From: a virus
Virus record (IMG/VR): IMGVR_UViG_3300047322_000201
Location: 1 to 62,464 of that record
Direction: 5' to 3' (one strand)
DNA length: 62,464 nucleotides
Each line of letters begins with the position of its first letter. The first letter of the stretch is position 1. Under the pieces are notes generated by a model, which saw only the letters and a list, made by a program, of their open reading frames with translations, made no database searches and was not told where the DNA came from. Both the position numbers and the translations under genes were made by a program. This document shows positions 23,527 to 62,464 of the stretch, in pieces.

Positions 23527-23666
23527 CCCCCAAGGAAGAGGACAAGGACGAGCTTAAGTGGTGGACAGCCCGGCTGGAAATAGCGCGCGACGACAACGAG
23601 CGCCGGCTGTGCGAGCGATGCATCGCGCTAATCACCGCGCGGCTAATCGAGAACAACTATGACTGA
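23523..23666 (+). CDS. Small helical protein of the IALxTAxLME family
   Basis: A 47-residue acidic helical-hairpin protein ending CIALITARLIENN. It matches the tails of 11481, 13204 and 13547. It overlaps the DNA polymerase start by 8 bases, so its translation is coupled to polymerase. Confidence 0.6.
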   Translation: MTPKEEDKDELKWWTARLEIARDDNERRLCERCIALITARLIENNYD

Positions 23667-26400
23667 CATCGTAACCGGCGACTTCGAGACGTACTACGCC
23701 ACCGACTATAGCCTCACGCGTCTCACCACCGAGGCATATATCCGCGACGAGCGGTTCGAGGCGATCATGTTGGGCCTGAAGGTGAACGACGAGCCGGCGT
23801 ACATCGTCGACTCGACCGACATCGGCGCGGCGCTGCGCGACCTGAACCTCTCCAACAAGAAGTTCCTCGCGCACCACGCCGCGTTCGACGGCGCCATCCT
23901 CGAGTGGCGCTACGGCGCGCGGCCCGGCATGTACCTCGACACCCTGTCGCTCGCGCGGCCGGTGACAGGCAACACGGTGGGCTGCTCGCTCGACGCGCTC
24001 ACCAAGAAGTTCACGACGAGCGAGAAGGGCAAGGAGGTCGTGATGGCGCGTGGTAAGCGCCGGTCTGACTTCACGCCGGCCGAGTTCACCGCGTACGCCG
24101 GCTACTGCAAAAACGATGTGGAGCTTACCGCCCTGCTCTACCAGATCCTGCAGCAGTTCTCCACGCCGCAGGAGCACTACATCATCGACATGATGCTGCG
24201 CATGTTCACCGATCCGGTCTTCGAGCTCGATCGCACCACGCTCATCGAGCACCGCAACCAGGTGCAGGCGCAGAAGGCGCGGCTGCTCGAGAAGGTGGAG
24301 GCGTTCTGTGGCGCTGATGGATTGATGAGCAACGACAAGTTCGCCGAGGTGCTCGATCGCCTGGGCGTCGAACCACCGATGAAAGTATCGGTCGCCAAGA
24401 CGAACAACGCCACGAAGAACCCGAGCGGCGAGCCCGTCTACACCTACGCGTTCTCCAAGCAGGACGAGGCGTTCAAGGCGCTGCTCGAGCACGAGGACCC
24501 CATGGTGCAGGCCGTGGTCGCCGCCCGTCTGGGCGTGAAGTCCACCATCGAGGAGACGCGCGCTGAGTCGTTCCTGGGTATACAGATGCGCGGGCTGCTG
24601 CCTGTTTACTACCACTACTGGGGTGCGCACACTGGCCGCGCGTCCGGCGGCGACAAGGTGAACCTGCAGAACCTGACCCGCGGCGGCAAGCTGCGCGCCA
24701 GCATGAAGGCCCCGCCTGGCCACGTCGTCGTGGCATGCGACTCCGCGCAGATCGAAGCGCGCGTGGTGGCATGGTTAGCGGGTCAGACCGACCTTGTCGA
24801 GCGGTTCGCCGCCGGCGCGGACATCTATTCCGAGTTCGCCACGGACATCTACGGCTACCACGTCGATCGCAAGAAGAACACCGAGCATAAGGTGCAGGGC
24901 TTCGTTGGCAAGACGTGTTTCGCAGCGAACACTCGTGTATTAACAAACCGTGGTGCCGTAGATATCATCGACGTACAACCTACGGATTTGGTATGGGACG
25001 GAGAAGAATGGGTACGACACTCGGGGGTGGTCTTCCAAGGGGAGAAGGTGACGAAGGAATTTGCCGGAGTCCGCGCGACACCGGATCACGAAATCCTGAC
25101 GGAACATGGATGGCGGGAGTGGAGCGAGGTCAGTACAAGCCCTTCCCTTTTCCAATCGGCGCTGTCTTTGGCTGGCTCACCATCACAGGATGGGAGCGCC
25201 ACCATAACAAGCTCGGGAAGTCAGCGGGCTTCCACCCTGTTTGCCGATGCGTCTGTGGCTGGACAGGAAAGGTTGATCGACACAGCCTTAAGGCCGGGCG
25301 GTCCACGCGGTGCAACGCCTGCGCGAAAATCGCTGCGAGCACCAAGCGGTACTGGTGCTACAAAAACGCCATGCCTGACGACGAGCATCGAACTCGACTG
25401 CTCAATCGACTCTCTAGTGCAATCGCGCGCTGCCACAACCGTGGTAACCGTGCGTACCACGGGTACGGTGAACGTGGCATCGCAGTCTGCGATGAGTGGC
25501 GACGAGACCGCGCGGCCTTCTTGTGGTATGTCCAAACCGTCCCAGGGTGGGACGACCCAGAACTCGAGATGGACCGAGAGAACAACAACCGAGGATACGA
25601 GCCTGGTAACATCCGCTTCGCCACGCGAAAGGAGAACGTTGCTAATCGCAGAGAACTCGCCACGCTGGAGCGAAGAATCAGAGAGCTCGAGGCAGAGGTT
25701 GCCCGTCTTCGATCTGGCGAACGCGGGGCCGAGGAATAGGTTTGTCATCGTTACCGACTCCGGACCAGTGATCGCGCACAACTGTATTCTCGGCCTCGGT
25801 TTTGGGATGGGAGGCGACAAGCTGGACACCACCTTCCGAAAAGAGAAGGTCGACGGCGGGGTAGAGTTCGCGAAACACTGCGTGGACACCTACCGACAGA
25901 AGTATGGTGAGATCGTCAAGCTGTGGAAAAAATGCGACAACGTGCTTAAAGATGTTTGCAATGGGTACGAAGGGTATGTAGGCGTCGGCGTCGAGCTTTT
26001 GTGGAACCAGGATGGTATCCACCTGCCCAACGGCATGCTGATCCGCTACCCCGAGCTCAAGCGCGGCAAGGATGGCTTCGAATACAAGACCAAGCGCGGC
26101 TGGGTCAAGCTGTACGGAGCGAAGGTAGTTGAGAACATCGTGCAGGCGTTGGCGCGAATTGTCGTTTTCAATCAAATGGCTATGATCGACCAGCAGCTGC
26201 GCCCGCTGGACGCGCCCAGGCAGCGCCACCGCGTCGCCGCGTCGACACACGACGAAGTGATCGGCATCGTGCCGGAGGATAAAGCTAACTGGATGGTCAA
26301 CTTGATGCTAACGATTATGCGGAAAGTCCCTAAATGGGCATACGGTCTACCTATTAACTGCGAGGCAGAGTATGGTCTGACATATGGCGACTGTAAGTGA
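23659..26400 (+). CDS. Family A DNA polymerase precursor with intein
   Basis: A 913-codon gene. After removal of a 289-residue intein the polymerase is 624 residues. The 3'-5' exonuclease domain has DFE (8-10) and YCKND. Polymerase motif A is DSAQIEAR (D361), motif B is the O-helix GK(T)..CILGLGFGMG interrupted by the intein, and motif C is HDE (about 864 in the precursor). It is the replicative polymerase; no 5'-3' exonuclease domain is present. The intein separates catalytic O-helix residues, so splicing is needed for activity. The start overlaps the small gene upstream. Confidence 0.93.
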   Translation: MTDIVTGDFETYYATDYSLTRLTTEAYIRDERFEAIMLGLKVNDEPAYIVDSTDIGAALRDLNLSNKKFLAHHAAFDGAILEWRYGARPGMYLDTLSLARPVTGNTVGCSLDALTKKFTTSEKGKEVVMARGKRRSDFTPAEFTAYAGYCKNDVELTALLYQILQQFSTPQEHYIIDMMLRMFTDPVFELDRTTLIEHRNQVQAQKARLLEKVEAFCGADGLMSNDKFAEVLDRLGVEPPMKVSVAKTNNATKNPSGEPVYTYAFSKQDEAFKALLEHEDPMVQAVVAARLGVKSTIEETRAESFLGIQMRGLLPVYYHYWGAHTGRASGGDKVNLQNLTRGGKLRASMKAPPGHVVVACDSAQIEARVVAWLAGQTDLVERFAAGADIYSEFATDIYGYHVDRKKNTEHKVQGFVGKTCFAANTRVLTNRGAVDIIDVQPTDLVWDGEEWVRHSGVVFQGEKVTKEFAGVRATPDHEILTEHGWREWSEVSTSPSLFQSALSLAGSPSQDGSATITSSGSQRASTLFADASVAGQERLIDTALRPGGPRGATPARKSLRAPSGTGATKTPCLTTSIELDCSIDSLVQSRAATTVVTVRTTGTVNVASQSAMSGDETARPSCGMSKPSQGGTTQNSRWTERTTTEDTSLVTSASPRERRTLLIAENSPRWSEESESSRQRLPVFDLANAGPRNRFVIVTDSGPVIAHNCILGLGFGMGGDKLDTTFRKEKVDGGVEFAKHCVDTYRQKYGEIVKLWKKCDNVLKDVCNGYEGYVGVGVELLWNQDGIHLPNGMLIRYPELKRGKDGFEYKTKRGWVKLYGAKVVENIVQALARIVVFNQMAMIDQQLRPLDAPRQRHRVAASTHDEVIGIVPEDKANWMVNLMLTIMRKVPKWAYGLPINCEAEYGLTYGDCK
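24916..25782 (+). mobile_element. Intein in DNA polymerase motif B
   Basis: A 289-codon in-frame insertion starting with Cys (codon 420) and ending His-Asn before extein Cys 709. Block A-like CFAANTRVL, block B ATPDHEI (T-x-x-H) and block F/G-like VFDL..RFVIV...GPVIAHN are all visible. The part between block B and block F is Ser/Thr-rich and not protein-like in this frame. It contains the complete HNH gene (25110-25739) in another frame. This is a splicing-competent-looking intein with an out-of-frame endonuclease. Confidence 0.88.
25110..25739 (+). CDS. HNH homing endonuclease nested out of frame in the intein
   Basis: A 209-residue ORF in a different frame from the polymerase, wholly inside the intein. 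The N-terminal domain has the phage HNH pattern IGAVFGWLTI, then Cys pairs CRCVC and CNAC (zinc ribbon). The nuclease domain has GYGERGIAVCDEW, MDREN, GYEPGNIRFAT and ENVANRR. The C-terminal coiled-coil tail is rich in Glu, Arg and Leu. It has its own ATG and stop (TAG at 25737-25739). A GTG at 25119 is an alternative start, and no strong Shine-Dalgarno is seen. It probably cuts intein-less polymerase genes and so spreads the intein. Confidence 0.85.
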   Translation: MAGVERGQYKPFPFPIGAVFGWLTITGWERHHNKLGKSAGFHPVCRCVCGWTGKVDRHSLKAGRSTRCNACAKIAASTKRYWCYKNAMPDDEHRTRLLNRLSSAIARCHNRGNRAYHGYGERGIAVCDEWRRDRAAFLWYVQTVPGWDDPELEMDRENNNRGYEPGNIRFATRKENVANRRELATLERRIRELEAEVARLRSGERGAEE

Positions 26401-33201: not shown

Positions 33202-36168
33202 ATGGATACGTTGGCGTTCCTGCAGGCGATCATGCCTGCGAACGGCCCGTATCTCATCGCACACTTCGATGGCGCGAAGCCCTACCTTCAGCACACGGCC
33301 ATGCCGTCGCTGGAGCTCATGGCAAAAACCATCAAGGGGTTCGACGAGAAGGGCTACACGGTTTATCACGCATGCTCGTCCTACAAGGGCGCACATGTCA
33401 TGCTGCCGGACCCTAAAAAGCCCGGTGAGATGAAACGGTACTACCGCGTCGCGGAGAACCTGAACCGCGTGCGCTCGTTCTGGATTGACATCGACTGCGG
33501 CGAGGACAAGGCGGACGCCGGCAAGGGTTATGCGAAGAAGTCCGACGCGCGTGATGCGATCGTCAAGTTCTGCAACGACGTGGGGCTCAAGCTGCCGATG
33601 ATGGTGAGCTCGGGTAATGGCCTGCACTGCTACTGGCCACTCACCAAGGACATTGGCCCGAACGGCTGGCGCGCGGTGGCTTCGGCGTTCAAGGCGGCCC
33701 TGGCCGAGCACGGCGTGCTGGCTGACCCCACGCGCACGGCGGACGCGAGTTCGATCCTGCGCCCAGTGGGCTCCACGCACCGAAAGGGTGAGCCCAAGCC
33801 GGTGAAGGTGCTGTATGCCGGCCAGGGCGAGATGACGCCCGAAGCGTTCCGCGATATTTTTTCCTCCGCCAGTGTTAGCACGTTGACGGCTGGAGTTAGC
33901 GAAGTGCCTGCGTTTCTTCGGGGCGCTGCCTCGGGAAACGGGCTGGCTGAGCACGCCAAGTATGACGGCCCGCCCTCCTCCGCGGTGGTGATCGCGGAGA
34001 AGTGTGCTCAGCTGCGCGCCATGCGCGACACCAAGGGCTGCGTCGAGTATCCGATCTGGTTCAAGTCGCTCGGGGTCATCAAGCACTGCACCGAGGGCCT
34101 GGCTCTCGCGCAGGAGTGGAGTGCCGAGGGGCCGGGCTATTCGGAGTACGCCACTGAGAAAAAGTACGACGACTGGAACACAGGGCCCGCCACGTGCGCG
34201 GCGTTCTTCGCGGACAACCCGAAGGGCTGCGACGGCTGCGTCTACCGGGAGAACGATGGCACGTTCAAGAAGACCTCGCCGATCCAGCTGGGTCTGACGA
34301 TGCCGGAAGCGGCGCCCGCGCAGGTGATGCAGGTGCAGCTGCCGACCGCGGCCGCGCCGGTGACGATCGAGATCCCGGAGAAGCCGGACGGCTTCCAGTG
34401 GGACGACGAGAAGCTTGTGCGGTATCTGGTGAATAAGGACGGCGACCTCGAGTGGCACACGCTCACCGAGGCGCACTTCTACGTCTACGGCTGGGCGATC
34501 GACGAGAACAAGGCGTTCCACGCATCGGCCCGCCTGCACCAGCCGCGCGGCGGGATTGTCGAGTTCGACATCCCTATGGCGGCGGTGGCGTCAGCCAGTG
34601 ACTTAATGAAAGAATTGAGCAAGAGGTCAATCATGCCGGTGAATACGAAGGACTCGGGCACGCACATCATGGCGTACGTGCGTGAGTCGATCAACAAGAT
34701 CAAGGTGGAAGCGGCCGAGCTCTCCACGCTGCGCGCCTTCGGCTGGACGCCGGAGCGCGACGGATTCCTGATGGGCGACGTGCTCTACGGCACGGACGGC
34801 TCGGTGCGCAAGGTGCGCCTGGGCGCAAACGCCACGACGCTGTCAGAGGTGGTGTTCCCCGCGCGCCGCGGCAGCCTCGAGAACTACGTGAACGCGGTGA
34901 ACTTCGTCTACGCGCGCGACGGCATGGAGCCGCTGCAGTATGCGTTCGCCAACGCATTCGGGTCGCTGCTGACGCCCTTCTCCGGCGAGACGCTCTACAA
35001 GGGCGTGATGTTCGCGATCACCGGCGGGCGTACCGCGCGCGGCAAGACGACCGTGGCGAATGCGGCGCTCTACGCGTTTGGTGACGCAAGCCGCATGACG
35101 CATACCAAGTCATCCACGATCAACGCGCGCTACGGCTTCATGGGCACGCACGGCAACATGCCGCTGCTGTTCGACGAGTTCACGGACATTGAGCCGGCCG
35201 AGCTCTCCGAGTGGGCCTACTCCATCTCGGAAGGCCGCGACAAGTCGCGCATGCAGGCGGGCAGTAACGGCGTGGGGCTGGCGAAGTCCTCCGAGTGGGC
35301 GATGGCGCCGTATGTCACGGCCAACACCGACCTGCACGAGCGCCTCGCTGAGCACCGTGGCAACACGGATGCGGAAGCCATGCGGATCATCCAGCTGTCG
35401 ATCGACAAGTACGCGCTGCCACAGCTGGACCCGAATCAGGTCTCTCAGGCGCTGAACACGATGGGGATGAACGCGGGCCACGCGGGCGAAGTGTTCGTGA
35501 AGCACCTCGTGGCGAACAAGGCGGCCGTCGAGCAGCTGGTGTTCGACAAGATGCTCGTGGCAGCCAAGCACCTGACGTCGGCTGGCCAGCGCTACTACCG
35601 CGCGCACATGGCCTGCACGCTGGCGGCCGCGCAGCTGCTGTGTGACCTCGGACTCGTGGCGTTCAACTACCACGCGGTTGAGCAGTTTGCGATCTCGATG
35701 ATGACGGACATGTCGGAGACGGTCGCCGAGACGAACACGGTGGACCTCGAGGACACGCTCTCGCGCATGATTAACGCGCTGGCGCCACGCATCCTGACGA
35801 CCTACGGCTACTACACCAGCAGCCGCGTGGCGCCGGAAGAGGTGCGGATCTACAACGAGGTCGCCGGGCGCTACGTGATTGGCAACCAGCAGACCGACAA
35901 CAGCTTCCACAACGTCCTGATTCTCAGCCGGCCGGCGGTGCGCAACTGGTGTACGACTGAGCGCATCGAGTTGTCTGAGGTCCTGGGTGCGGCCGCCGCG
36001 CGCGGCGCGCTCAAGGGCGACAGCGTGCGCATGACGCTGACCCGGGGTACGACCGCCGCTGGCTCCGCCGTGCCCTGCGTGCTGCTCGACATGAGTAAGC
36101 TCGACGATGCGAACCTGCTGCCGCAGATACAGGCGGTTAGCAATCACCACGTGGCTAAAGCCATCTGA
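33202..36168 (+). CDS. Primase-helicase fusion (AEP-like plus DUF927)
   Basis: A 988-residue replication protein. The N-terminal domain has WIDIDCG (D96, D98) and SSGNGLHCYW (about 133-142), as in archaeo-eukaryotic-type primase-polymerases. A Cys-rich linker with CAAF..GCDGC (about 330-350) follows. The C-terminal DUF927-type ATPase has FGWTPERDGFLMGD, Walker A GGRTARGKTT (about 607-616) and Walker B LLFDEF (about 655). It is expected to unwind DNA and make primers. ATG 33202 is chosen over an upstream GTG because of the GGAG spacing. Confidence 0.85.
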   Translation: MDTLAFLQAIMPANGPYLIAHFDGAKPYLQHTAMPSLELMAKTIKGFDEKGYTVYHACSSYKGAHVMLPDPKKPGEMKRYYRVAENLNRVRSFWIDIDCGEDKADAGKGYAKKSDARDAIVKFCNDVGLKLPMMVSSGNGLHCYWPLTKDIGPNGWRAVASAFKAALAEHGVLADPTRTADASSILRPVGSTHRKGEPKPVKVLYAGQGEMTPEAFRDIFSSASVSTLTAGVSEVPAFLRGAASGNGLAEHAKYDGPPSSAVVIAEKCAQLRAMRDTKGCVEYPIWFKSLGVIKHCTEGLALAQEWSAEGPGYSEYATEKKYDDWNTGPATCAAFFADNPKGCDGCVYRENDGTFKKTSPIQLGLTMPEAAPAQVMQVQLPTAAAPVTIEIPEKPDGFQWDDEKLVRYLVNKDGDLEWHTLTEAHFYVYGWAIDENKAFHASARLHQPRGGIVEFDIPMAAVASASDLMKELSKRSIMPVNTKDSGTHIMAYVRESINKIKVEAAELSTLRAFGWTPERDGFLMGDVLYGTDGSVRKVRLGANATTLSEVVFPARRGSLENYVNAVNFVYARDGMEPLQYAFANAFGSLLTPFSGETLYKGVMFAITGGRTARGKTTVANAALYAFGDASRMTHTKSSTINARYGFMGTHGNMPLLFDEFTDIEPAELSEWAYSISEGRDKSRMQAGSNGVGLAKSSEWAMAPYVTANTDLHERLAEHRGNTDAEAMRIIQLSIDKYALPQLDPNQVSQALNTMGMNAGHAGEVFVKHLVANKAAVEQLVFDKMLVAAKHLTSAGQRYYRAHMACTLAAAQLLCDLGLVAFNYHAVEQFAISMMTDMSETVAETNTVDLEDTLSRMINALAPRILTTYGYYTSSRVAPEEVRIYNEVAGRYVIGNQQTDNSFHNVLILSRPAVRNWCTTERIELSEVLGAAAARGALKGDSVRMTLTRGTTAAGSAVPCVLLDMSKLDDANLLPQIQAVSNHHVAKAI

Positions 36169-36173
36169 CCTCA

Positions 36174-36197
36174 GCCCCGGCCACGCGCCGGGGCTTT
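36174..36197 (+). terminator. Rho-independent terminator after primase-helicase
   Basis: An 8-bp stem, GCCCCGGC / GCCGGGGC, with a 5-base loop followed by TTT. It separates the lytic replication unit from the partition cassette. Confidence 0.8.
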
Positions 36198-36198
36198 C

Positions 36199-36238
36199 GT
36201 ATATACGGCGGTATGGACGTGCATCCATACGTATATAC
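36199..36238 (+). promoter_or_regulatory. Candidate partition site (parS/parC-like dyad)
   Basis: The order is GTATATAC (36199-36206), GGCG, GTATGGA (36211-36217), CGTGCA, TCCATAC (36224-36230), GTATATAC (36231-36238). An inner 7-bp inverted repeat is flanked by two identical self-complementary octamers. Type Ib partition systems keep their centromere and operator just upstream of parA, which is where this lies. Confidence 0.6.
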
Positions 36239-36256
36239 CGATCTCCTCATTCATGT

Positions 36257-36290
36257 AGAACTTGAAGTTCTCCCCGACATGCACTAGCCT
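36257..36290 (+). promoter_or_regulatory. Predicted parA promoter with overlapping inverted repeat
   Basis: AGAACTT-G-AAGTTCT (36257-36271) is a perfect inverted repeat. The -35-like TTGAAG (36262-36267) lies inside it, with TAGCCT (36285-36290) 17 bases further on. The overlap suggests autoregulation by the ParG-like protein. Confidence 0.5.
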
Positions 36291-36316
36291 ACCGACACTT
36301 CACGACGGGAGGCAAC

Positions 36317-37006
36317 ATGCTGATAGCGGTGGCATCACGCAAGGGCGGGGTGGGAAAGACCACCATCGCCACCAACCTAGCCGCAGGCAGAGCCGCCAGC
36401 GGATACGACACCAAGCTCATCGACACGGACCCAGAGCGCTACGCCTTCATGTGGGTCGGTACGCGCGCGGATAAGGGCGTCGAGCCTGAAATACGTGCGA
36501 CCTCCATGCAGGGCGAGATCAAGGGCGCGCTGATAGCCGACCGCATACAGGCCGATACAGTCATCGTGGACTGCGCTGGTGGCAACAGCGTGGAGCTCGT
36601 GCATGTGGTTGACGTCTGCGACGTGCTGATCATCCCGGTGAAGATCGGCCAGTTCGATGTCTGGAGCCTGATGGCCATCGCCAAGTTGATCGCGACTGCC
36701 CGACTTGAGCGGCAGTTCAAAGTGATCCCGGTGATGAACGCGCTCGATCCGCAGCAGCCTGACAGCCCGCTCGCACGCGCGCTCGAGCAGCAGGTGAAGG
36801 CGTGCTTCGACGATCCGATCGTGAAGATATACGAGCGTGTGAGCGTGGCGTACGCGGCGATCGAAGGGAAGGGCGTGCTCGAGCTCAAGGCAAACCGGGA
36901 CAACGCCAAAGCAATCGACGAATTTTCAACGCTCTACCAGGAGGTGTTCAATGAGCCCACGCGATGTGTCATTCGCCCAAGTGCCGCAGCTGTCGCCAGC
37001 GCTTAA
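36317..37006 (+). CDS. parA: ParA-type partition ATPase
   Basis: A 229-residue ATPase of the small ParA/ParF type without an N-terminal HTH. The deviant Walker A is KGGVGKTT (9-16), Walker A' is IDTDPE (about 40), and Walker B is VIVDCAGG (about 80). It uses ATP-dependent DNA binding to move or anchor plasmid copies. GGGAGG precedes the ATG. It overlaps the ParG-like gene by 56 bases. Presence of a ParA in a phage with no integrase supports plasmid-like lysogeny. Confidence 0.9.
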   Translation: MLIAVASRKGGVGKTTIATNLAAGRAASGYDTKLIDTDPERYAFMWVGTRADKGVEPEIRATSMQGEIKGALIADRIQADTVIVDCAGGNSVELVHVVDVCDVLIIPVKIGQFDVWSLMAIAKLIATARLERQFKVIPVMNALDPQQPDSPLARALEQQVKACFDDPIVKIYERVSVAYAAIEGKGVLELKANRDNAKAIDEFSTLYQEVFNEPTRCVIRPSAAAVASA

Positions 37007-37253
37007 GCAGTTCGAGGAAGAAGCGCGCGGGCAGCGCAGCAATCCCGTGGAACCAGCGCCGGCCGAGCGCCAAGGGAAGAGGGTGTCCCTGAAGCCACGC
37101 GTCGACACGCGCAAATTCAGCCTCAATATCCCGATCCCGCTGCATGAGGAGCTCCTGGAGTTCTCGAAGGACACCGACCTCGACATGAGCGAGGTGCTCA
37201 TCGAAGGCGCGAAGCGCGAGATGGTGCGTCTTCGCAAGCTCCACGGTCTGTGA
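36951..37253 (+). CDS. ParG-like RHH centromere-binding protein
   Basis: A 100-residue basic protein with a disordered, basic N-terminal half and a C-terminal ribbon-helix-helix pattern: the KFSLNIPIP strand, helix LHEELLEF, then helix MSEVLIEGAKREM. This is the ParG/omega layout, in which the RHH binds the centromere and the N-terminal tail stimulates ParA. AGGAGG lies before the ATG, inside parA. It would also repress the operon. Confidence 0.8.
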   Translation: MSPRDVSFAQVPQLSPALKQFEEEARGQRSNPVEPAPAERQGKRVSLKPRVDTRKFSLNIPIPLHEELLEFSKDTDLDMSEVLIEGAKREMVRLRKLHGL

Positions 37254-37568
37254 TTCCGATCCGACTCCCGGCAGTGAACCCCACTGCCGCTCGGCGGACC
37301 GGCTGCGTGGCTGCCGATACCGGCAGAGAGACAAAAAACCGGGCAAACCTAACCCGTAAGAACCTAGATCAAGAGGGAATTCTCGGAGAGCCACGTAAAC
37401 ACTAGACCCTGCGTCTCATTTTTGAGTCGCGAAGTGATCAAAAATGAGCCTGATAGTGCTCGCTGGGAAGATCACTTCTGGTACTAAAAATGGGACTGAT
37501 TGTGCTAGGCAAGTTGCGCACATGCCGTAGCGTGTGTATGCTCCGCGAAGTGCTAAAGGAGAAGCGAC
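37254..37568 (+). other. Non-coding replicon control region with iteron-like repeats
   Basis: 315 bases without a gene. It holds a perfect 11-bp inverted repeat (37415-37425/37438-37448), a second 9-bp inverted pair (37431-37439/37470-37478), and two 21-base direct repeats (37440-37460 and 37486-37506) that match at 18 positions with a 46-base period. The repL promoter follows. The layout fits a plasmid origin or copy-control region. Confidence 0.65.
37514..37542 (+). promoter_or_regulatory. Predicted repL promoter
   Basis: TTGCGC (37514-37519) and TATGCT (37537-37542) with a 17-base spacer, 27 bases before the repL start and directly after the direct repeats. This suggests repression by whatever binds them. 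Confidence 0.6.
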
Positions 37569-38036
37569 ATGACAGCCAAGTTCCGTGGGGTTCGCAAGAT
37601 CTGCGACGTCGACACCGGCGACATCATGAACGTCCAGGTGGTGGATAAGAGCGTCGGTGATCGTGGATTCAAAAAAATCTGGATGGCCCAGATCCTCGAC
37701 CTTGTCGACGAGGTCGGCAACGCCAAGATGAAGGTGCTCGCGTGGTTGATCGACGCGGCCGATAACAAGAACCAGGTGCTCGCCACGCTCACCGAGATCG
37801 CCGATGCGACCGACACAAGCCGCGCGACAGTGCAACGCTTGATGTCCGTCCTGAAGAAAGCCAACGTGATCGCTGAGACACGCCGGTCGCTGTGGCGCCT
37901 GAACCCGGAGATCATCTTCGCGGGCAACCACGACCAGCGCATGGCCGTCCTGATCCGATACAACAACGAGAAGCAGAAAGATCTGTTCGATGAAAAGCCC
38001 GAAGAGAAGCTCTCGCACCTGCGCGCGGTAGCCTAA
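37569..38036 (+). CDS. RepL-family plasmid replication protein
   Basis: A 155-residue winged-helix protein matching the RepL family pattern: KIWMAQILDLVDEVGNAK, KVLAWLID, TLTEIADATDTSRATVQRLM (HTH), then LWRLNPEIIFAGN and the closing AVLIRY. RepL proteins are sequence-specific replication initiators of small plasmids. Here it sits with parA and a centromere candidate. AAAGGAGAAG precedes the ATG. This is not the P1 RepL protein, which is longer. Confidence 0.85.
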   Translation: MTAKFRGVRKICDVDTGDIMNVQVVDKSVGDRGFKKIWMAQILDLVDEVGNAKMKVLAWLIDAADNKNQVLATLTEIADATDTSRATVQRLMSVLKKANVIAETRRSLWRLNPEIIFAGNHDQRMAVLIRYNNEKQKDLFDEKPEEKLSHLRAVA

Positions 38037-38037
38037 C

Positions 38038-38060
38038 TTATCCACAATTTCTGTGGATAA
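38038..38060. promoter_or_regulatory. Inverted pair of perfect DnaA boxes (origin candidate)
   Basis: TTATCCACA (38038-38046) and TGTGGATAA (38052-38060) are both exact E. coli-type DnaA boxes in inverted orientation, 5 bases apart, starting just after the repL stop. They could also form a 9-bp hairpin, but no T-run follows. A host-DnaA-assisted plasmid origin is likely. Confidence 0.75.
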
Positions 38061-38079
38061 CTCACGCAACTAATCGTCT

Positions 38080-38367
38080 ATGACCATGAAAACCAATAAA
38101 CTGATCATCGCCACGGCGCTTACCATTGCGCTGGCAGGGTGCGGCGGCCCGCAAGTCACGGCGATGCAGGGTCCATCAGGGGGCAAGGAGTACCTCGTGG
38201 ACTGCGGCCACCACGGGTTCGATGGTGGCGACTGGGCGCAGTGCTACTCGGAGGCCACCAGGGTCTGTCCGAGCGGTTACGCGATCCACGACAAGAGCCA
38301 GGAGGCCGGGCCGGTCTTCGCTACCTCGGGTGCCAAGCGCACGTTGCTGGTCGCGTGCAAAGTTTGA
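38080..38367 (+). CDS. Small lipoprotein
   Basis: A 95-residue protein with a signal peptide and lipobox LAGC near residues 18-21, so it should be lipid-anchored. The mature part has several Cys and a CGHHGF..W..C pattern. It is next to the plasmid maintenance genes and so possibly expressed in the lysogen. A surface-exclusion or lysogenic-conversion role is an inference. An internal ATG at 38086 is an alternative start. Confidence 0.75.
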   Translation: MTMKTNKLIIATALTIALAGCGGPQVTAMQGPSGGKEYLVDCGHHGFDGGDWAQCYSEATRVCPSGYAIHDKSQEAGPVFATSGAKRTLLVACKV

Positions 38368-38402
38368 TCATCGGTATTATGTCAATACGAGGGTAAACAA
38401 GA

Positions 38403-38418
38403 GCCGCCCGAAGGCGGC
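38403..38418 (-). terminator. Terminator between convergent units
   Basis: GCCGCC-CGAA-GGCGGC hairpin just after the stop of the giant virion gene. On the minus strand it is followed by TCTTGTTT, fitting termination of the long late transcript. Confidence 0.65.
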
Positions 38419-38424
38419 CCTGCA

Positions 38425-41400
38425 TCACTCGTCGGGGTCTTGGCCCTCCGCCAGCAGCCGGCTGCGGATCGCGTTGTAGTTGCGCGCGCTGCCTTGCACG
38501 CCACGCTGCGTCCAGTGCTTCTGCTTCTCGGCGCTCACCAGCCCACGGAACAGCATCGAGCCAGCCGGCGGCTTCATGCCGTTCTGACTCATCTCCGTGG
38601 CGGTCTCGGCGAATTGCTTCTGCACGTCAGCCATGGTGCCGGCGTCGCCATCCTTCAGCGCGCGCTGGAACTGCGTGGCCATCTCGTTGAACTTCGACGT
38701 GTAGTGCGCCTCGTCGGTCTGCTCATCCTTGGCCACACGCTGCGCGTCCGCCACCGACTTCGGCTGGATACCCACCGCCTGCGCGGCGATATCAGCTGTC
38801 GAGAGATTCTCCGGCGCGATGCGCTGCGTGCCCTTCTTGTCGGCGAAGCCATCGGTCGCGAGGCCGTACGCCTTCAGGCCGTCCTGAATGCCCTTGGGCA
38901 TCATGGCCGCCAAGCCACCGTACCAATCCCCCTTCATCATCTGCCCCACACCGCCGAGCATATTGATTGCCGTGCCGCCGGTCGGGCCAGCCACCGCCAG
39001 AGCCGCATCGCCCAGCTGCGCGCGCGTAGGGATCTCCCCGTGCGCCACGCTGCTGGCGATCTCAAGCGGCTTGACCAGCGGATCGAAAATATCCCCCGCA
39101 CCAATTTTCCGTTCAGCATTCACCCCCATCACCCCTGGCACACCGTGCGTCAGGAAGTCGCCAATCGTGGAGTCACCCACCGCCTGACGGATGTACGACT
39201 CAGTGCTCATCGCCTTGTCGTGCTCATCGCCAAACAGGTTCTTGATCGCCCCCGCCACCAGCATCGCACCTGGCACGCCGGCGGCGCCCGCCAGCACGCC
39301 GTAGTGGCCAGCCATGAACGCCAGCGACTTCTGCGCGATCGCGCGCTCCTCGGGCGTCGCCCCCTTGAATGACTCGCGCGCCAGGTTCACCACCATCGAG
39401 CCGTGCAGCACGTGGAACTTCTTGTACTGGGTGGCAAGACGCAGCAGCGGGTTGGCGCTTGCGAGCGCGCGCGGTGCGTTGGCCGCCGAGTAATCGCCGT
39501 ACGCCGACATGATCGTGTCCGTGGCGAACTTCACGCCCGCATCGTGCGCATCGGTGGCCGACTTGCCAGCGCGCTCCGCGTCCTTGAACGCCAGGCGGTA
39601 GGCCGCCAGCGCCGAGAGGATGCGGTTGTGCGTCTCGAGCGTGCGCGGGATCTGGCTCATCTTGCCGGTGACCGTATGGAATGCCGCCGACGCTGCGTTG
39701 TCGCTGTACACCGCCGGGCGCCCTGCTTCCAGATCGCTGCCGTGCTCGAGAATGTTCCGGGCCTGCAGCGCACGCAGCATCCCGACCTCGTCGCCCACCT
39801 TGTTCACGTGCTTGGCGAGATCCGGCTTGACCCACGACGACGACTTGGCGATCGCGATCGCATCCTGCAAACCACTGTGGAGTTCACGCCAGCCATGCGC
39901 ATAGCCATAGCGCCCCTGCAGGATTGGCAGCGCCATGGTGACCGGCTGCGAGAGGTACTGCAGGTAGTGCGCCGGCGAGCTCAGCAGACGCCACACCGAG
40001 TTGAACTGCAGCAGGTTGTCCATCACCCGCGACGGCTCGTTCTTCATCTGCTGGATGCGCCGCGCGGCGAACTCGTTGGCGAAGTCCTGCCGCTCCTTCG
40101 CCAGCTTCGGGTCGGTCGTCTCGCGCACCTCGCGCGACATCGCCGCCTGCGCCTTGTTGATGGCGTCACCGTGGACGGCCTCGGATACCATACGGTTGCG
40201 GTTCTGGCCGTTCATGAAGAACGACATCAGCGCCTGCTCGCCCTTAACCCCCACGACGTTGCCGCGCTTGAGGTTTGAGGCGCGCGCCGAGTTGTCGGCC
40301 ATCTTCTGGAGCATGAGCTCCTTGAGCATCTTCGCCATGTCGTCGGCTGCGGCCGGGTCGACGCCCTCCTGCTCGCTCACCGACTTGCGGATCTTCTCAG
40401 CCCACGCGTCGACCGTCGCGAACGACGCGCCGTGCGTGTCAGAGTAATACTTGTCGCGCGCCATCGCCTTGACGTTCTGGCTGCCGAACTTCATGTCCAG
40501 CTGGCGCTTGACCTCGTTGGCCAGGGCCTGCGATGCCTCGTGGCCGTAGTAATAGTGGTTGGCGTCCTGCTTCAGCTGCGTGAGACGTGCCTGCGCGCCG
40601 TCGCGCTCGGCCGCGAGGTACTCGTGCGACTTGGCCTCGACGACGAACTCACCGTGGCGGCGCAGCGGGAAGTACGGGCCATCCATGCGCGGCTCGACGC
40701 CCTTAGGCATCTCCACGCCTGCGCGCTGCGAGGCTTCCTTAAGCGCCACGAACTCGCGCTGCTGCTGCTCGACGCCTTCCTTGTTGAGCGACTTGATGAC
40801 TTCCTGCACATTGGTGGGCAGCTTGTCGAAGCGCGCCTTGGTCGACGGGTCCACCGTGACGCCCTTGTTCCAGTCGGCCTCATAGCCCCACTTGCCCCAC
40901 ATCGTGGTGTCGGTGAGGTAGTCGCCCGCCATGCGGCGTTCGTTCGGCTTGAGCTTCGACGCCTCGGTGCCGAGCTCCGCGATGTGCGCGTTGAGCGCGT
41001 TGCGGTAGGCGTCCTTGCGCGAGATCGCATCCATGTACTCGCGCGGCGTCTTCATGCCAGCGGTCTTCTCGGCGAGGTTCGCCAGGTCGTGGCCGAAGCG
41101 GATCGCCTTGGCGGCGACGCCCGTGACATGTGCGAGGTTGTCGTAGATGCGTCGCACCGGGCCTTGAGCGGCCTCGGGCAGCTTCGAGATTACGCGCTCG
41201 GCTCGTCCGGGAGCGCCATCGAACCCTGTGGGTCGAGTCCCCTCACTGCTTGCGGCAGCGGCTTGCTCTGCGTCTCGAGTTGAGCTGCGGGCGGCTCGGC
41301 GCGCGTTGGCGGCTGCTGCGAGTTCTCGGAGTCGCTCGTCGCTGTGGCTGGCGTAGGCGTCTGCGGGCTCTGCTGGCTCGCCGCGCCCACCTTCGTCCAG

Positions 41401-44400
41401 TCCACCTTGTTCGGATCGGGCAGCCCCTTCAGTGCGCCCTTGGGTGTCACGAACGGCGAACTCGATGCCGCGGCCTGTCGCGTGAGACTCCGTGCCATGT
41501 TGAAGCGCTTCTGGGTTGCGTTTGACATTCTCCACTACCTCTTTCATGAACTTGGCCGTGGCGGGCGCGTACTGCTCGAGCTTCGCGCGCCACGTCGGAT
41601 TGGTGTACATCGACCACAGCTGCGAGAATACCTCGCCCTGCAGGCGCTTGCGCGACATCGGATAGGCGTCACGGTTCAGCGGGTAGTCGAACAGGCCCTC
41701 GAGCAGCGGATCGCCCGACTTGAACATGGCGTCGACTTCGCGCGCGACCTCGCCGCTGCCTTCCCAGCCGTGCTCGCCGAGCGAGAAGCGCATCTCCGGC
41801 TGGATCGAGTAGACACCACCGTGACCGATGTCGTCGACCACGTGGCCCACTTCGTGGCGCAACGTGTGCGCGAGCAGTGCGCCACCGTTGTCGGACACCT
41901 CGCGTGAGATGCCAACCTTCATGCCACCGTTCGGATCGGCCACCGCGTAGCCGTCGCCATCGAACTGGTGTGGCTCGAAGACGTGGTATTCCGTGGCGGC
42001 ATCCAGCGCATGCGTGATGCCCAGGCGATCGTACTCGCGCTCGGTGTCGCGCACCGTATCCGCGTTGTTCTCAGCGATCTCCTTGAAGCCCGGCGACGTG
42101 CGCGAGTCGTACTCGTACATGCCGTTGTCGTACTTGTCGACGATGCCGGCGAAGCGGTCGCGGTTGGCCGTGCCAGCCTTGAGCGCGTCGTGCCACTCAC
42201 CCTTGAGCGAGCTCGGCAGGTCATCGAACTTCACGCCCGACTCCTGGTGGAGCTCTTGCTTTTCCCACGCCGTGCGCGCGGCGCCGTGCTCGTCATCCAT
42301 CTCGGACTCGAAGCCACGCTTGCGGATCTGCGCCTCAAGCGCGTCGAGCTTCTCCTGGATGGCGTCGGCCTCGGCGTGCTTGCCCTTCGCCACGAGATCT
42401 TCCTGCTTCTCGCGCAGCTTGGCCCACTGCGTGACGTGGTCGCCGCCGTCCGCCACGTTCGACTTCGAGCCGCCGGCCGTGACCGTGCCAGTGCCCGTCA
42501 TGTCGTCGAGCTCTGCGTGGCCCAGGCGGTCGCCGGCGTTGGGCGCCAAGCTCGACTCACCATAGCCGAGCTCCTGCTGGATCTCGTACGCCTTGTCACC
42601 GACCGCCGCGCGCTCAAGCGCCTCATCGGCTTCTGCTTTAGCGCGACGCTTGGCAGCCTCATCGTGGAAGAGCTTCATGAGCTCCTCCGGCTCCATGCCG
42701 ATGTTCTTCATGGCCTGCGGGATCTCCGCGGCCTTTTGCTTGCGCCACGCCTCGTTCGTCAGCTGGCTGATACGGCCTTCAGTCAGGCCATGCTGCGAGG
42801 CGACGTCGGCGATCGCCGAGCCATCATGGACGGCCGCGAAGATCGACAGGTCGCGCGCGGCGTTCTTGCCGGGGAAGAGTTGCTTGGCAAGCTCAACGAA
42901 GCGCGGGTGCGCAACCTCCTCACCAGCTTCCTGCTTGGCAGCCTCGGCGGGCTTTGCGTCCCACGGCGACTTGTAATCGCCATGCATGATCGACTCGATC
43001 TCGCCATGCGTCAGCGCGCCCGTCCGCTGGGTGATCGAGTTGACGTGCCCGTACTTGAGCGCGCCGTCGCTTTCACGCACGCGGTCCTGCAGGCGACGAA
43101 TCATTTCCGATCGCGTGATCTCGCCGTTCATGTAGGCCACGACGTCGTTCTGCGCGCGATTCATGCCGGTCGGCTCTTTGCCGCCGACCGGCTTCACCTC
43201 GGGGTAGTCGTGGTGGTCGCGCAGTTCGATCTCGCCGCGGGTGTCCTTCTCACCACGCACCGGCTTGCCGCCGGGCGTGATCATCATGGTGCCCGCGGAG
43301 TCGCGCCTTACTTCTTCGCCTTCTGCACCGGACTCGGCCCGGCCAGCTGCATCTCGCCCACCACGTACAGCGGCATCCCCAGCCGGGCTGCGATCCGCTG
43401 CTCCCTCGCTTCGTACGCTGCCGACTCGTGCGGCTCCTGCTTCGACTCCATCCGATTGTCGCAACTCACCTGCTGGTCGAACTGATACCGATCCCACGTC
43501 TGCGGATCGTCCAGCGACGTCCCCGGCAGGGGCTTGCTCTTGTCCGCGAAGTTGTTCAGTGCCATTGATGCTTCTCCGTTTCTTGACCTTGACGAGAGTG
43601 TTCTGCGTCGTGGCGTCCAGCGGACGACCATCGACGTAGGCTTTAGGTGCTTCTCCTCTGATCGCGGCGTCCCAATCGGCATCGGTCGGCACGCGGTCCG
43701 AGAAATAAGTTGTCGGCTCATGTGGCTCAGCGAGCGCAGCTTGCCACGCTGCTTCGCTCTCGCTTACTTCACCGGCTTCGGCAGATCCTGCGCGTACATC
43801 TGCCGGTTGTTGTTCTTGAAGCCCGGTGCCTTCGGTGCCTTGGGCATCGGTGCCTTGGCGGGCTTCGCCACTGCCTGCTTGGGGAACGGCGTCGCCTTGG
43901 GCGCCATTGCCTTGGGCATCGGTGCGGACGCCTTCGGCAGCGACGGCGCCTTGGGTTGCGGAACTTTCGCCGCCTTCAGGGCGGGCATTGCTGGCATCTT
44001 GGACATTGTTTTCTCCGATGAGTTTTTTGCGCCACTCGTTGAGGACGCCGCGTTTGAAGTCCGAGGACTCCGCCTTCGAGCGCTCGAGCTTCTTGAGCGC
44101 GAGATCGATCTTCATCACTGCATCGGCATGCGACTGGATGTCGCCCACGCCGATCAGCTTGGTGAACTGGTCGAGCTCCTTGGGCGTCGGGTGCGGGCCG
44201 AGGCCATCCGCGTCCTTTGGCCGATCCATGGGGTTATGCTCGCGCCACGCGTCGACGAACACGTGCTCGAGGTCGTGCTGCACGTCGGACTTGGCGAGCT
44301 CCTTCGTGGCGACCTTAGCCTGCGCGCGGTTGAACTCGTCGGTCGTGGTGTGCTCGTCGCCCGCCCACGCGTGCGCGCCCGGCACCGGCTGGCCCGAAGG

Positions 44401-45864
44401 AGCGTGGATGATGTCGCCACGCGGGCCGAACTTCGACTCGGCAAGCGCCACGCCACCTTGCTGCTTAATCTCAGCCTGCTTCTGCGCGTTGGCATCGTCG
44501 GTGTTGTGCGATGCCTCAATCACGTCGCCGAGCGTCGCCGGGCGGATTTCCACGCCGGTCTGCGGGTCGTGGATCATGAACGGCGTCGGCTGGTCCAGCG
44601 CACCCTTCATGTCGGACTGCACAGGCGCACGTGCCACGCCGGTGTTCTGGTCGATGATCGACTGGATCGGCGTCGGCTGAGGGCCGTGAATGTTCTGGAG
44701 CGCGGGGTTAGGTGCGGCTGCGTCGGTGGCGCCGTAGCCGAGCGTCTGCGCGCTGTCGGCCACAGGGTTGACGCCCTGTGCTTCGTTGGCTTTCTGACGT
44801 GCTTCGAAGTCACCGCGCTGCGCTTCCACACCGCCGGGGAAGATGCGCGGAGCATTCTGGTCCGGCACGGTCGGGTCGTGCGGCAGGCGCGGCACCGAGG
44901 AGCCCACCGAGTTCGCTGCGTCGCCGGCGGGGTCGCCAGTCTTGACGCCCTCGTTGGCGCCGTCGAGCGCGGACTTCGGATGGAAGATCGGGTGCAGCGC
45001 AGCGCCGGCGACAGCACCGCCGACGAAGCCATGACCCGCGGCGGATGCGAGGTTCTGGTTCCACGCGTCGCCATTGCCGACGTTCTCGCCCAGCTGCGAG
45101 CCAGTGGCCATACCTGCGCCCTGCACGCCTTGGTCCACCGCGCCGGCGGTAGCCTTCTGGATGAAGTCGCCAACAAACGGCACCTTGGCTGCTAACTTAC
45201 CCGCGAGCGGCGTGAGGAACTTGGAGCCCAGCGCCATCGTGGCGGCCGTGGTGACGCCAGCGATCGGAGCAGCCTCGTAGGCCCCAGCGATATTGTCCGG
45301 GTTCTTGTCGAGTACGTTCTGTGCCGAGGTGCCTGCGGCTTGCACGCCCGCGCCAACCGGGCCGAGCGCCACGCCAGCGGCGAGGTTAGGCGCGGCTTCG
45401 ACGGCCGAGCCGAGTGCTGCCATCGGATGGCGCGCGTAGGCGCCGGCGGTGTTCCAGAAGCCCTGCGCGTCCTCGATGTCCTTCTCGTCCGCTTGGAGCT
45501 TGGCCGAGAGATCCTGGCCAAGCTCCTTGTTGGCCTGGCCAAGCGTCTTGATCGGCGCGAGCGCTTCAGCGGCCTGCTCGCCATACTTCTTGGCGATTGC
45601 GGCGTGGAGATCACGGTCGGCCTTGCCAGTGCCACCACCCGTGGCGAGGTTGCCCAGACCCTTGATCGACTGCTCGACTTCCTGTACGCCCTGCGCGAGC
45701 TTCACCGCCGAGTCGGGGGTATGCCGGGCGATCCACGACTGTTCGCGAGGCGCGTCGTCCCCGATCTCCGTGTAATCCGTGAGCTTGCCAGGCGAGGTCG
45801 AGTCAGACGGCGCGCTAGGCCCAGCGGTAGCCGATACGTCCTCGTAGTCGGTGATCTTCGGCAT
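38425..45864 (-). CDS. Giant internal virion protein with HExxH motif
   Basis: A 2479-residue protein, last gene of the late unit. The N-terminal 300 residues have hydrophobic Gly/Ala-rich segments. A long Ala/Glu/Gln/Gly-rich helical region, with low complexity around residues 650-900, follows. HEVGH at 1337-1341 with a downstream His resembles a zinc metallopeptidase, and the C-terminal third is helical with Ala-rich hydrophobic stretches. Podoviruses eject such proteins with their DNA; they degrade cell wall or form the ejection tube. Bcep22-type phages carry a protein about twice as long, from memory. The peptidase function is inference. Confidence 0.8.
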   Translation of the reverse strand: MPKITDYEDVSATAGPSAPSDSTSPGKLTDYTEIGDDAPREQSWIARHTPDSAVKLAQGVQEVEQSIKGLGNLATGGGTGKADRDLHAAIAKKYGEQAAEALAPIKTLGQANKELGQDLSAKLQADEKDIEDAQGFWNTAGAYARHPMAALGSAVEAAPNLAAGVALGPVGAGVQAAGTSAQNVLDKNPDNIAGAYEAAPIAGVTTAATMALGSKFLTPLAGKLAAKVPFVGDFIQKATAGAVDQGVQGAGMATGSQLGENVGNGDAWNQNLASAAGHGFVGGAVAGAALHPIFHPKSALDGANEGVKTGDPAGDAANSVGSSVPRLPHDPTVPDQNAPRIFPGGVEAQRGDFEARQKANEAQGVNPVADSAQTLGYGATDAAAPNPALQNIHGPQPTPIQSIIDQNTGVARAPVQSDMKGALDQPTPFMIHDPQTGVEIRPATLGDVIEASHNTDDANAQKQAEIKQQGGVALAESKFGPRGDIIHAPSGQPVPGAHAWAGDEHTTTDEFNRAQAKVATKELAKSDVQHDLEHVFVDAWREHNPMDRPKDADGLGPHPTPKELDQFTKLIGVGDIQSHADAVMKIDLALKKLERSKAESSDFKRGVLNEWRKKLIGENNVQDASNARPEGGESSATQGAVAAEGVRTDAQGNGAQGDAVPQAGSGEARQGTDAQGTEGTGLQEQQPADVRAGSAEAGEVSESEAAWQAALAEPHEPTTYFSDRVPTDADWDAAIRGEAPKAYVDGRPLDATTQNTLVKVKKRRSINGTEQLRGQEQAPAGDVAGRSADVGSVSVRPAGELRQSDGVEAGAARVGSVRSEGAADRSPAGDAAVRGGRDAAGRAESGAEGEEVRRDSAGTMMITPGGKPVRGEKDTRGEIELRDHHDYPEVKPVGGKEPTGMNRAQNDVVAYMNGEITRSEMIRRLQDRVRESDGALKYGHVNSITQRTGALTHGEIESIMHGDYKSPWDAKPAEAAKQEAGEEVAHPRFVELAKQLFPGKNAARDLSIFAAVHDGSAIADVASQHGLTEGRISQLTNEAWRKQKAAEIPQAMKNIGMEPEELMKLFHDEAAKRRAKAEADEALERAAVGDKAYEIQQELGYGESSLAPNAGDRLGHAELDDMTGTGTVTAGGSKSNVADGGDHVTQWAKLREKQEDLVAKGKHAEADAIQEKLDALEAQIRKRGFESEMDDEHGAARTAWEKQELHQESGVKFDDLPSSLKGEWHDALKAGTANRDRFAGIVDKYDNGMYEYDSRTSPGFKEIAENNADTVRDTEREYDRLGITHALDAATEYHVFEPHQFDGDGYAVADPNGGMKVGISREVSDNGGALLAHTLRHEVGHVVDDIGHGGVYSIQPEMRFSLGEHGWEGSGEVAREVDAMFKSGDPLLEGLFDYPLNRDAYPMSRKRLQGEVFSQLWSMYTNPTWRAKLEQYAPATAKFMKEVVENVKRNPEALQHGTESHATGRGIEFAVRDTQGRTEGAARSEQGGLDEGGRGEPAEPADAYASHSDERLRELAAAANARRAARSSTRDAEQAAAASSEGTRPTGFDGAPGRAERVISKLPEAAQGPVRRIYDNLAHVTGVAAKAIRFGHDLANLAEKTAGMKTPREYMDAISRKDAYRNALNAHIAELGTEASKLKPNERRMAGDYLTDTTMWGKWGYEADWNKGVTVDPSTKARFDKLPTNVQEVIKSLNKEGVEQQQREFVALKEASQRAGVEMPKGVEPRMDGPYFPLRRHGEFVVEAKSHEYLAAERDGAQARLTQLKQDANHYYYGHEASQALANEVKRQLDMKFGSQNVKAMARDKYYSDTHGASFATVDAWAEKIRKSVSEQEGVDPAAADDMAKMLKELMLQKMADNSARASNLKRGNVVGVKGEQALMSFFMNGQNRNRMVSEAVHGDAINKAQAAMSREVRETTDPKLAKERQDFANEFAARRIQQMKNEPSRVMDNLLQFNSVWRLLSSPAHYLQYLSQPVTMALPILQGRYGYAHGWRELHSGLQDAIAIAKSSSWVKPDLAKHVNKVGDEVGMLRALQARNILEHGSDLEAGRPAVYSDNAASAAFHTVTGKMSQIPRTLETHNRILSALAAYRLAFKDAERAGKSATDAHDAGVKFATDTIMSAYGDYSAANAPRALASANPLLRLATQYKKFHVLHGSMVVNLARESFKGATPEERAIAQKSLAFMAGHYGVLAGAAGVPGAMLVAGAIKNLFGDEHDKAMSTESYIRQAVGDSTIGDFLTHGVPGVMGVNAERKIGAGDIFDPLVKPLEIASSVAHGEIPTRAQLGDAALAVAGPTGGTAINMLGGVGQMMKGDWYGGLAAMMPKGIQDGLKAYGLATDGFADKKGTQRIAPENLSTADIAAQAVGIQPKSVADAQRVAKDEQTDEAHYTSKFNEMATQFQRALKDGDAGTMADVQKQFAETATEMSQNGMKPPAGSMLFRGLVSAEKQKHWTQRGVQGSARNYNAIRSRLLAEGQDPDE

Positions 45865-54669: not shown

Positions 54670-54894
54670 TCAATCGTCCTTGATGATCGCCCGCGCGCCG
54701 GCGTCGGGCTCGAGCGACTTCTGACAGTGGTCCTTCTGCACGTAGCTGAGCAGCTTGCAGAGCACACACCCCCAGCGCTTGCCAGCGCGCATCGCCTTGT
54801 CCGCGCGGCTCGAGATCGTCTCGTCCGGGTCGCCGCCGGCGAGCGTGTTGAGCAGCTGGTCGAGCGCGATCAGCACGTTCCAGATGTATGCCAT
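54670..54894 (-). CDS. Small phage protein near tail fibre
   Basis: A 74-residue protein with the pattern FxALDQLLNTLxGGDPDET and KDHCxKS, which I recall from many Burkholderia-type phages, of unknown function. TGATG overlap with the upstream gene favours ATG 54894 over 54900. Confidence 0.65.
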   Translation of the reverse strand: MAYIWNVLIALDQLLNTLAGGDPDETISSRADKAMRAGKRWGCVLCKLLSYVQKDHCQKSLEPDAGARAIIKDD

Positions 54895-55409
54895 CACCAT
54901 GTGATCGCCTGCACCTGGGCGACAGTGGTCGCTGCGTTGACCGCCGCGCAGAGGTCGTTGTTGCGCTGGATCGCATTGAGCTTCGTGACCATCGCGTCCA
55001 TACCCACGCGCTGGATCTGCGCGGCGGTGTGCAGGCGAAACGCCCAGACGCCGGCAGAGTCCGCGCACCAGAACGGCGTCGCCCACGACGTGTCCACGCC
55101 CGGCAGCAGTGATGCCGTCACCGACGAGACCAGGTTGCTCTGGTCCTTGTCGAGGAACGGGTAGTGGTACTCCGCGCCGAGCGCCGTCGACGTGAAGCCT
55201 GCGTAGATCGCGTTCTGGCAGGCGCTCGAGAGCACGGAGATCTGGTTGGCCTGCGCCTGCGCGAGTGATAGTGTGGGCGTCGTGGGCTTGTTGCCCACGG
55301 CCACCCAGTCGAGGTAGGCGGCGTAGTCGGTGTTGGCGGGATCGCTCGGGATAAACGCACCATCCGAATCCCGAACGATGCTCCCGAATTGATTGATTGT
55401 GTAGGTCAT
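54894..55409 (-). CDS. Tail fibre assembly-like protein (DUF4376-like)
   Basis: A 171-residue protein with an N-terminal short beta region and a C-terminal helical domain rich in Ala, Gln and Asn, containing WAFRLHTAAQIQRVG, as in DUF4376. It sits directly between two fibre genes, where fibre chaperones or tip proteins are usual. Confidence 0.7.
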   Translation of the reverse strand: MTYTINQFGSIVRDSDGAFIPSDPANTDYAAYLDWVAVGNKPTTPTLSLAQAQANQISVLSSACQNAIYAGFTSTALGAEYHYPFLDKDQSNLVSSVTASLLPGVDTSWATPFWCADSAGVWAFRLHTAAQIQRVGMDAMVTKLNAIQRNNDLCAAVNAATTVAQVQAITW

Positions 55410-62419: not shown

Positions 62420-62464
62420 GGTGATGCTCTCCTAAAAAGATGGGGTGAACCAGGCAACCGAACC
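62338..62464. repeat. Right copy of exact 127-bp terminal redundancy
   Basis: Identical to bases 1-127. It confirms that the contig closes to a 62,337-bp circle. Confidence 0.95.

Follow-up and report, generated by a model that had tools for sequence, protein, structure and literature searches.

Among small carriers of resistance genes, RepL plasmids are common. In the accessible text of a review (PMC5703833), they are filed as rolling-circle plasmids, their replication is described as less studied, with no copy-number control known, and variation among RepL sequences is reported as greatest at residues 85-95, a suggested determinant of specificity. Further, according to the available portion of another paper (PMC7157519), related mycobacteriophages whose prophages live as plasmids differ in their partition/origin cassettes. 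In this report, we describe a repL gene in a viral genome and conclude that the cassette around it is likely an iteron-type RepL origin with its initiator, carried by a temperate phage that appears to persist as a plasmid prophage.

The virus genome and its exchanged block

The window analysed here is the whole of virus record IMGVR_UViG_3300047322_000201, 62464 bases in length. Its ends are an identical repeat of 127 bases (1-127 and 62338-62464); the genome unit is thus 62337 bases, circular or terminally redundant, and the record looks like a complete genome. Virion genes (terminase, head-tail adaptor/portal, major head protein and tail fibres) are accompanied by genes for replication (DNA polymerase, helicase, primase/helicase and RepL) and for partition (ParA), so that the window unites the virion, plasmid-replication and partition genes of a phage-plasmid. 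ParA was detected in all nine records searched, and a Phage_integrase domain was absent from eight of them, the window among these; the gene content fits a prophage that lives as a plasmid.

Two other genes of the window deserve mention. In the DNA polymerase frame (23659-26400), one polymerase profile is matched over the first 404 residues and others at 738-903, and the residues 439-720 between these parts match an endonuclease profile; an intein with a homing endonuclease is possible. The last third of the 2479-aa protein encoded by 38425-45864 gives a DarB-like antirestriction match.

The genes and edges of the cassette are as follows:

36173-36195, + strand: GC-rich hairpin after the primase gene, 9-bp perfect arms, loop of 5; left edge of the exchanged block
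36198-36238: inverted repeat ahead of parA that contains copies of CGTATATAC; putatively a par site or an operator
36317-37006, + strand: parA; phrog_164 ParA-like (1e-32), Pfam CbiA/AAA_31
36951-37253, + strand: putative second partition protein, small and judged ParB/RHH-like from its position and length
37569-38036, + strand: repL, encoding a 155-aa winged-helix initiator with its recognition helix at about residues 85-97
38038-38060: inverted pair of exact DnaA boxes, 5 nt apart, at the right edge of the exchanged block

Comparison with sibling phages delimits this block. One sibling, L007, has about 97% identity to the window on either flank of it, and immediately past the primase hairpin the identity goes from.98 down to.48; the divergent block spans about 36.2-38.04 kb and ends at the DnaA pair (38038). 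Within it, the L007 parA product has 62% protein identity to that of the window and is followed by a 207-aa initiator without a RepL match, then by CCCTCATGGGTGAGGG-type repeats, and then by the same DnaA pair as in the window. A more distant sibling, L006, has a third version: its initiator lies barely over the RepL cut-off (24.2 vs 20.3 bits), and it has 22-bp palindromic units of its own (CCCGACACAAATGTCGGG). Different initiators are thus found with different repeats, which indicates that the repeats go with the initiator. The small second partition protein has relatives at the same place in L002 (a contig described below), L006 and L007, and no Pfam or PHROG match. The gap between primase and parA holds a palindromic, TATAC/TACG-rich stretch in all three siblings (window 36198-36238, L007 11003-11020, L006 6282-6308). 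Its letters differ among the three, and it is likely a par site or operator.

The DnaA boxes (TTATCCACA, 38038-38046, and TGTGGATAA, 38052-38060) lie directly 3' of repL and 517 nt 3' of the last repeat unit described below. They are the only two exact DnaA boxes in the window, and their inverted arrangement is the sole match there even with 3 mismatches allowed; at this tolerance too, it arose in none of 100 shuffles. The initial annotation had the initiator flanked by both types of origin element. Both are present, but the assignment of the DnaA pair to the RepL origin is not supported. L007 keeps the pair despite its other initiator, and there the pair adjoins repeats; among the 11 distinct RepL loci examined (window, L002, L003, L105 and L107-L113), an exact box directly 3' of repL was found in two, the window and L105. 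The pair is thus probably no core part of the RepL origin. From these comparisons, we consider it part of the phage backbone and not of the RepL module, and it may help initiation in this phage group. The pair is not supported as a general marker of rep/par loci: a par or rep query match lay within 3 kb in 3 of at least 119 viral loci that contain it. The spacer of the pair (38047-38051) looks inverted between siblings (ATTTC against GAAAA in L007), as if by recombination or inversion inside the hairpin.

The minimum of cumulative GC skew had also been expected at the origin. Instead, the maximum lies here (37758), and the minimum is at 3225; by that criterion, the result counts against an origin at this place. 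A rightward gene block ends and a leftward block begins near the maximum; the signal is therefore confounded by gene direction and neither supports nor settles the position of an origin. Third-position skew by gene block is small and mixed. GC skew was accordingly rejected as an origin marker.

Repeats and conserved box upstream of repL

Every element named in the initial annotation (inverted arms, direct repeats and DnaA boxes) is present where it had been placed. The inverted arms are an exact 11-bp pair (CTCATTTTTGA at 37415-37425 and TCAAAAATGAG at 37438-37448) and a 9-bp pair (GAAGTGATC at 37431-37439 and GATCACTTC at 37470-37478). From alignment with a close relative, we find that the repeats are more aptly described as a series of five units, with centres that run from 37420.5 to 37511.5 in steps of 22-23 bp, behind a conserved box. 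The upstream features are:

37365-37392, + strand: conserved origin box, with AGATCAAGAGGGAA at 37366-37379
37412-37429: repeat unit 1, centre 37420.5; placed by eye and from homology to the register of L002
37434-37451: repeat unit 2, centre 37442.5; half-site GTGATC at 37434-37439
37440-37460, + strand: copy 1 of the direct repeat of the initial annotation
37456-37475: repeat unit 3, centre 37465.5; half-sites GTGCTC at 37456 and GATCAC at 37470
37480-37497: repeat unit 4, centre 37488.5; offset from unit 2 by 46 nt, the distance of the earlier direct repeat
37486-37506, + strand: copy 2 of that direct repeat, 86% (18/21) against copy 1
37502-37521: repeat unit 5, centre 37511.5; GTGCTA...GCGCAC, overlapping the putative -35
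37514-37542, + strand: putative repL promoter, TTGCGC-17-TATGCT; by eye, spacing as in L002
37550-37555, + strand: extra half-site GTGCTA beside the ribosome-binding site

The five centres were placed by eye on the alignment of the window with L002, and the earlier elements can be mapped onto them: the direct repeats fall in units 2 and 4, the 11-bp arms fall in units 1 and 2, and the 9-bp arms lie in outer halves of units 2 and 3. The promoter is likewise a call made by eye; a consensus promoter scan found none. No Rfam match to an RNA control element was found in 36100-38600.

How much of this array can be read from the window by itself? When the upstream 200 bp were shuffled 400 times with dinucleotides preserved, no shuffle reached the direct repeat (15/18 at lag 46; p 0.0025). 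The window has three places with repeats of 18/21 or better at lags of 18-60, and so the direct repeat by itself is only moderately rare. Taken alone, neither the window's palindromic periodicity (p 0.355) nor its best repeat at lags 20-27 (p 0.39) is significant; the clear repeat is that at lag 46, two units apart, and the palindromes are worn relative to those of L002 and other relatives. The stretch 37401-37580 is the only one in the window with five copies of GTG[AC]T[CA] in 150 nt, and some other 300-base stretches contain five or six. The case for regular units thus rests on the relatives.

The closest of these, L002, is a different phage-like contig whose RepL is 90% identical to that of the window over the matched segment. 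Window and L002 match at the nucleotide level over 37357-37993 (81%), a segment that takes in the box, the repeats and repL in otherwise different backbones; in the 20.4 kb of L002 compared, the only other match is to 54748-55265. RepL proteins about 54-63% identical to that of the window were found in five viral contigs (L105-L109, two of which share the same repL region), in Acetobacteraceae (plasmid L003 and contigs L110-L112) and in Paraburkholderia (L113), and more distant ones in plasmids of many bacteria. One of these, an Arsenophonus nasoniae plasmid (L090, 983-4754), has four annotated repL genes in a row.

Over the 200 bases upstream of repL, lag 22 was the best spacing (among lags 20-27) in 20 of 26 loci, the tandem direct repeats of about 20 bp beside an initiator gene that characterise an iteron origin. 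The best repeat at these lags exceeded shuffles (p<0.05) in 17 of the 26, Firmicutes included, and was not significant in the other nine. The 26 loci are not all independent, L003 and L110 being close, as are L107 and L108. The table leaves out duplicates (L106 of L105, L098 of L085, L102 and L104), records with a short upstream region (L089, L100) or with the gene at the record start (L092), extra repL copies in L090 and L099, and L246-L249, which were found later. In Acetobacter, each unit is a plain palindrome of 18 bp (GGTATCAAAATTGATACC and variants), and a run of five extends to the gene. The palindromes of L002, also five in number, are centred 22-24 apart (p 0.013). In a test for periodic palindromes, p was below 0.05 in 9 of 16 loci (L002, L003, L105 and L108-L113), the others being the window, L107 and five more distant loci (L084-L087 and L094).

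The box lies about 50-80 bases above the units. Its form is AGATAAGAGTRAA in many plasmids and AGATCAAGAGGGAA-like in the proteobacterial group. A search with these typed forms gave p<0.05 in 18 of 26 loci, but is circular for the window and for the loci already seen. For this reason, a separate nhmmer model of the box and first units was built from nine RepL loci, with the window and L002 excluded. In 19 records (328 kb), it matched only the window at 37365-37392 (E 0.0073) and L002 (E 0.0086); it later also found the box in L246, a locus fetched afterwards (E 0.0033). It had no match in the 15 more distant loci that were included, many of which have a box shorter by one base. On the sequences compared, an order of box, tandem 22-bp units and repL occurs in many plasmids and phages. 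A further shared element, TTACCCACACTTGAGCCTGACGCG ... TTGCC(C/T)CAATGAGAGAGAAAG and variants, stands above the box upstream of repL in L105, L107, L108 and L109 and at 7365-7480 in L006; it is partly present in L002 too and was not seen in the window.

The proposal of iteron-like repeats upstream of a RepL initiator is thus sustained by the relatives, by the origin model and by the covariation described below. Its details fare less well. The two 21-mers named as the repeats are only two of about five units, and AAAAATG, taken as their shared core, was rejected as a recognised sequence: it is not kept in L002, and it corresponds to the A/T centre of the units in the relatives, that is, to the unit spacer.

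RepL and the letters of the half-sites

The window's RepL matches the Pfam RepL family (PF05732) at 104.8 bits against a cut-off of 20.3 (E 4.3e-30), which places it in that family. Its AlphaFold model is weak overall (pLDDT 58.7); the only moderately confident part is a winged helix at about residues 51-111, in which helix 85-97 lies in ten-residue blocks with a mean pLDDT of 79-84. The nearest folds are CAP and MarR-type regulators, with all PDB matches above E 0.001. There is no Rep_3 match, and a single winged helix sets the protein apart from initiators of the Rep_3 type. Nor does it look like a rolling-circle initiator: Pfam and fold comparison reveal no nuclease domain or fold, and the 19 aligned RepL proteins have no invariant tyrosine, the invariant residues being G17, N68, T73, L95 and G119. 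RepL is rare: in two bacterial families, 3 of 398 genomes and 4 of 299 had a match, one of them weak in each family.

Recognition helix and half-sites change together. Across 11 loci, similarity of the repeat arms tracks identity of the helix after control for the remainder of the protein (partial r 0.348, permutation p 0.01). L110 and L111 are nearly identical in DNA except for two dips, one at the repeats and the other at repL codons ~70-110, the recognition-helix part; L105 and L107 display the same double dip in weaker form. The helix classes, with copies of each half-site in 300 bp on both strands (off-class counts being 0 to 2), are:

RATVQRLM (window, L002): half-site GTG[AC]T[CA]; 5 and 4 copies
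RPTVARLM (L003, L110): half-site GGTRTC; 5 and 4 copies
RRTVAALM (L105): half-site GGTGC; 8 copies
RTTVSALM (L107, L108): half-site GGTCC; 5 and 5 copies
KTVQRLM (L111, L112, L113, L246): half-site GGWCA; 6, 6, 3 and 4 copies, thus in 4/4 loci

A sixth helix type is found in L109, and the motif count covers the other five. The half-site motifs were read off the same data, except at L246, which was found after the KTVQRLM class was known and agrees with it. The reported variable residues 85-95 agree with the recognition helix found here. That the letters of the half-sites follow the helix strongly suggests that RepL binds these repeats.

Explanations of the cassette and comparison with known systems

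We propose that RepL, a small winged-helix protein, binds the tandem 22-23 bp units upstream of its own gene. Binding as a dimer is probable, given the 18-bp palindromic units in most of the close relatives. Once bound beside the box, RepL would mark the origin or open it and bring in replication proteins of the host or the phage, with replication starting from here and the box as the presumed place of opening or loading. Units that lie over the promoter would allow RepL to limit its own synthesis. The cassette is exchanged as a block together with the par genes, and, because initiator and repeats change together, related phages could differ in incompatibility.

Several other accounts must be weighed against this one. 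It is rather unlikely that the repeats are operators only, through which RepL represses its own gene, and that the origin sits elsewhere, the DnaA pair and the vicinity of the primase being examples. The putative promoter and start region do overlap with unit 5 and with the half-site at 37550, and the RepL fold resembles MarR/CAP-type regulators. In addition, the accessible text of PMC10655114 describes a Salmonella protein annotated as RepL that is dispensable for replication or maintenance; it is <19% identical to RepL. However, array and box extend upstream of the promoter by about 150 bp and are conserved throughout the family, and the exchanged block includes the repeats plus the initiator. 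Further, single-gene RepL plasmids of 1527 and 1705 bp exist; these leave little room for an origin elsewhere and suggest that RepL and a short non-coding stretch can suffice for an element. A rolling-circle double-strand origin, with the box as its nick region, appears quite improbable. The reverse strand of the box (CTCTTGATCTA) looks like the nick regions of pC194-type plasmids, which counts for this account, as does the usual filing of RepL (pSN2) plasmids in the available text of PMC5703833. The lack of an invariant tyrosine and of a nuclease domain or fold argues against it. Rolling-circle replication of a 62-kb genome that bears par genes would also be unusual.

The initial annotation had joined AAAAATG iterons and DnaA boxes into one origin around repL, and we regard this as unlikely. 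Its elements exist, the DnaA pair is beyond chance, and L105 also has a DnaA box directly after repL. Against it stand the absence of AAAAATG from L002, the retention of the pair in L007 with another initiator, the fact that 9 of the 11 distinct RepL loci have no exact box immediately following repL, and the rarity (3 of at least 119) of a par or rep query match within 3 kb of such pairs in viral loci. An iteron-type RepL origin with its initiator is the reading that we prefer.

A broader proposal can be made only tentatively, at somewhat less than even likelihood: that the whole RepL class, from Firmicutes to proteobacterial phages, is iteron-type with an origin plan of its own (box, 22-bp palindromic units and autoregulated promoter), that the recognition helix together with the half-sites constitutes an address code that can be read, and that phages change incompatibility by swapping the address or the whole par-ori-rep block between two hairpin edges. 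With a shared plan and a helix-to-half-site code, origin, binding site and incompatibility group would be predictable from sequence, and such predictions are testable in small plasmids. The sibling phages with their exchanged cassettes represent a natural experiment on incompatibility change in plasmid prophages. Our literature search found no description of the family-wide RepL layout or of the helix/half-site link; since most subscription papers lay outside it, this is weak evidence of novelty.

Among described systems, the extrachromosomal mycobacteriophage prophages, with repA or RNA origins beside parABS, are alike in that relatives differ in origin/partition cassette and in compatibility; their initiators are different, and no repeats were identified in the regions looked at, as far as the accessible text of PMC7157519 goes. 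Rep_3 iteron plasmids such as pSK639, with five 22-bp repeats (available text of PMC5703833), have tandem 22-bp repeats near the rep promoter, as here, but their initiator is unrelated; RepL has one winged helix, and its units are palindromic in most close relatives. The Acetobacteraceae RepL elements (plasmid Apa386Bp6 and contigs L110-L112) are closer, with RepL about 56-61% identical, the same box and a five-unit array. They are a small plasmid or contigs, Apa386Bp6 has no phage genes in its gene table, and their half-site letters and recognition helix are other than those of the window. Finally, the pSN2-family RepL plasmids of Firmicutes share the initiator family and the box with tandem 22-bp units upstream of repL; the locus described here differs from them in a box one base longer (AGATCAAGAG vs AGATAAGAG) and in its place beside par genes in a 62-kb phage.
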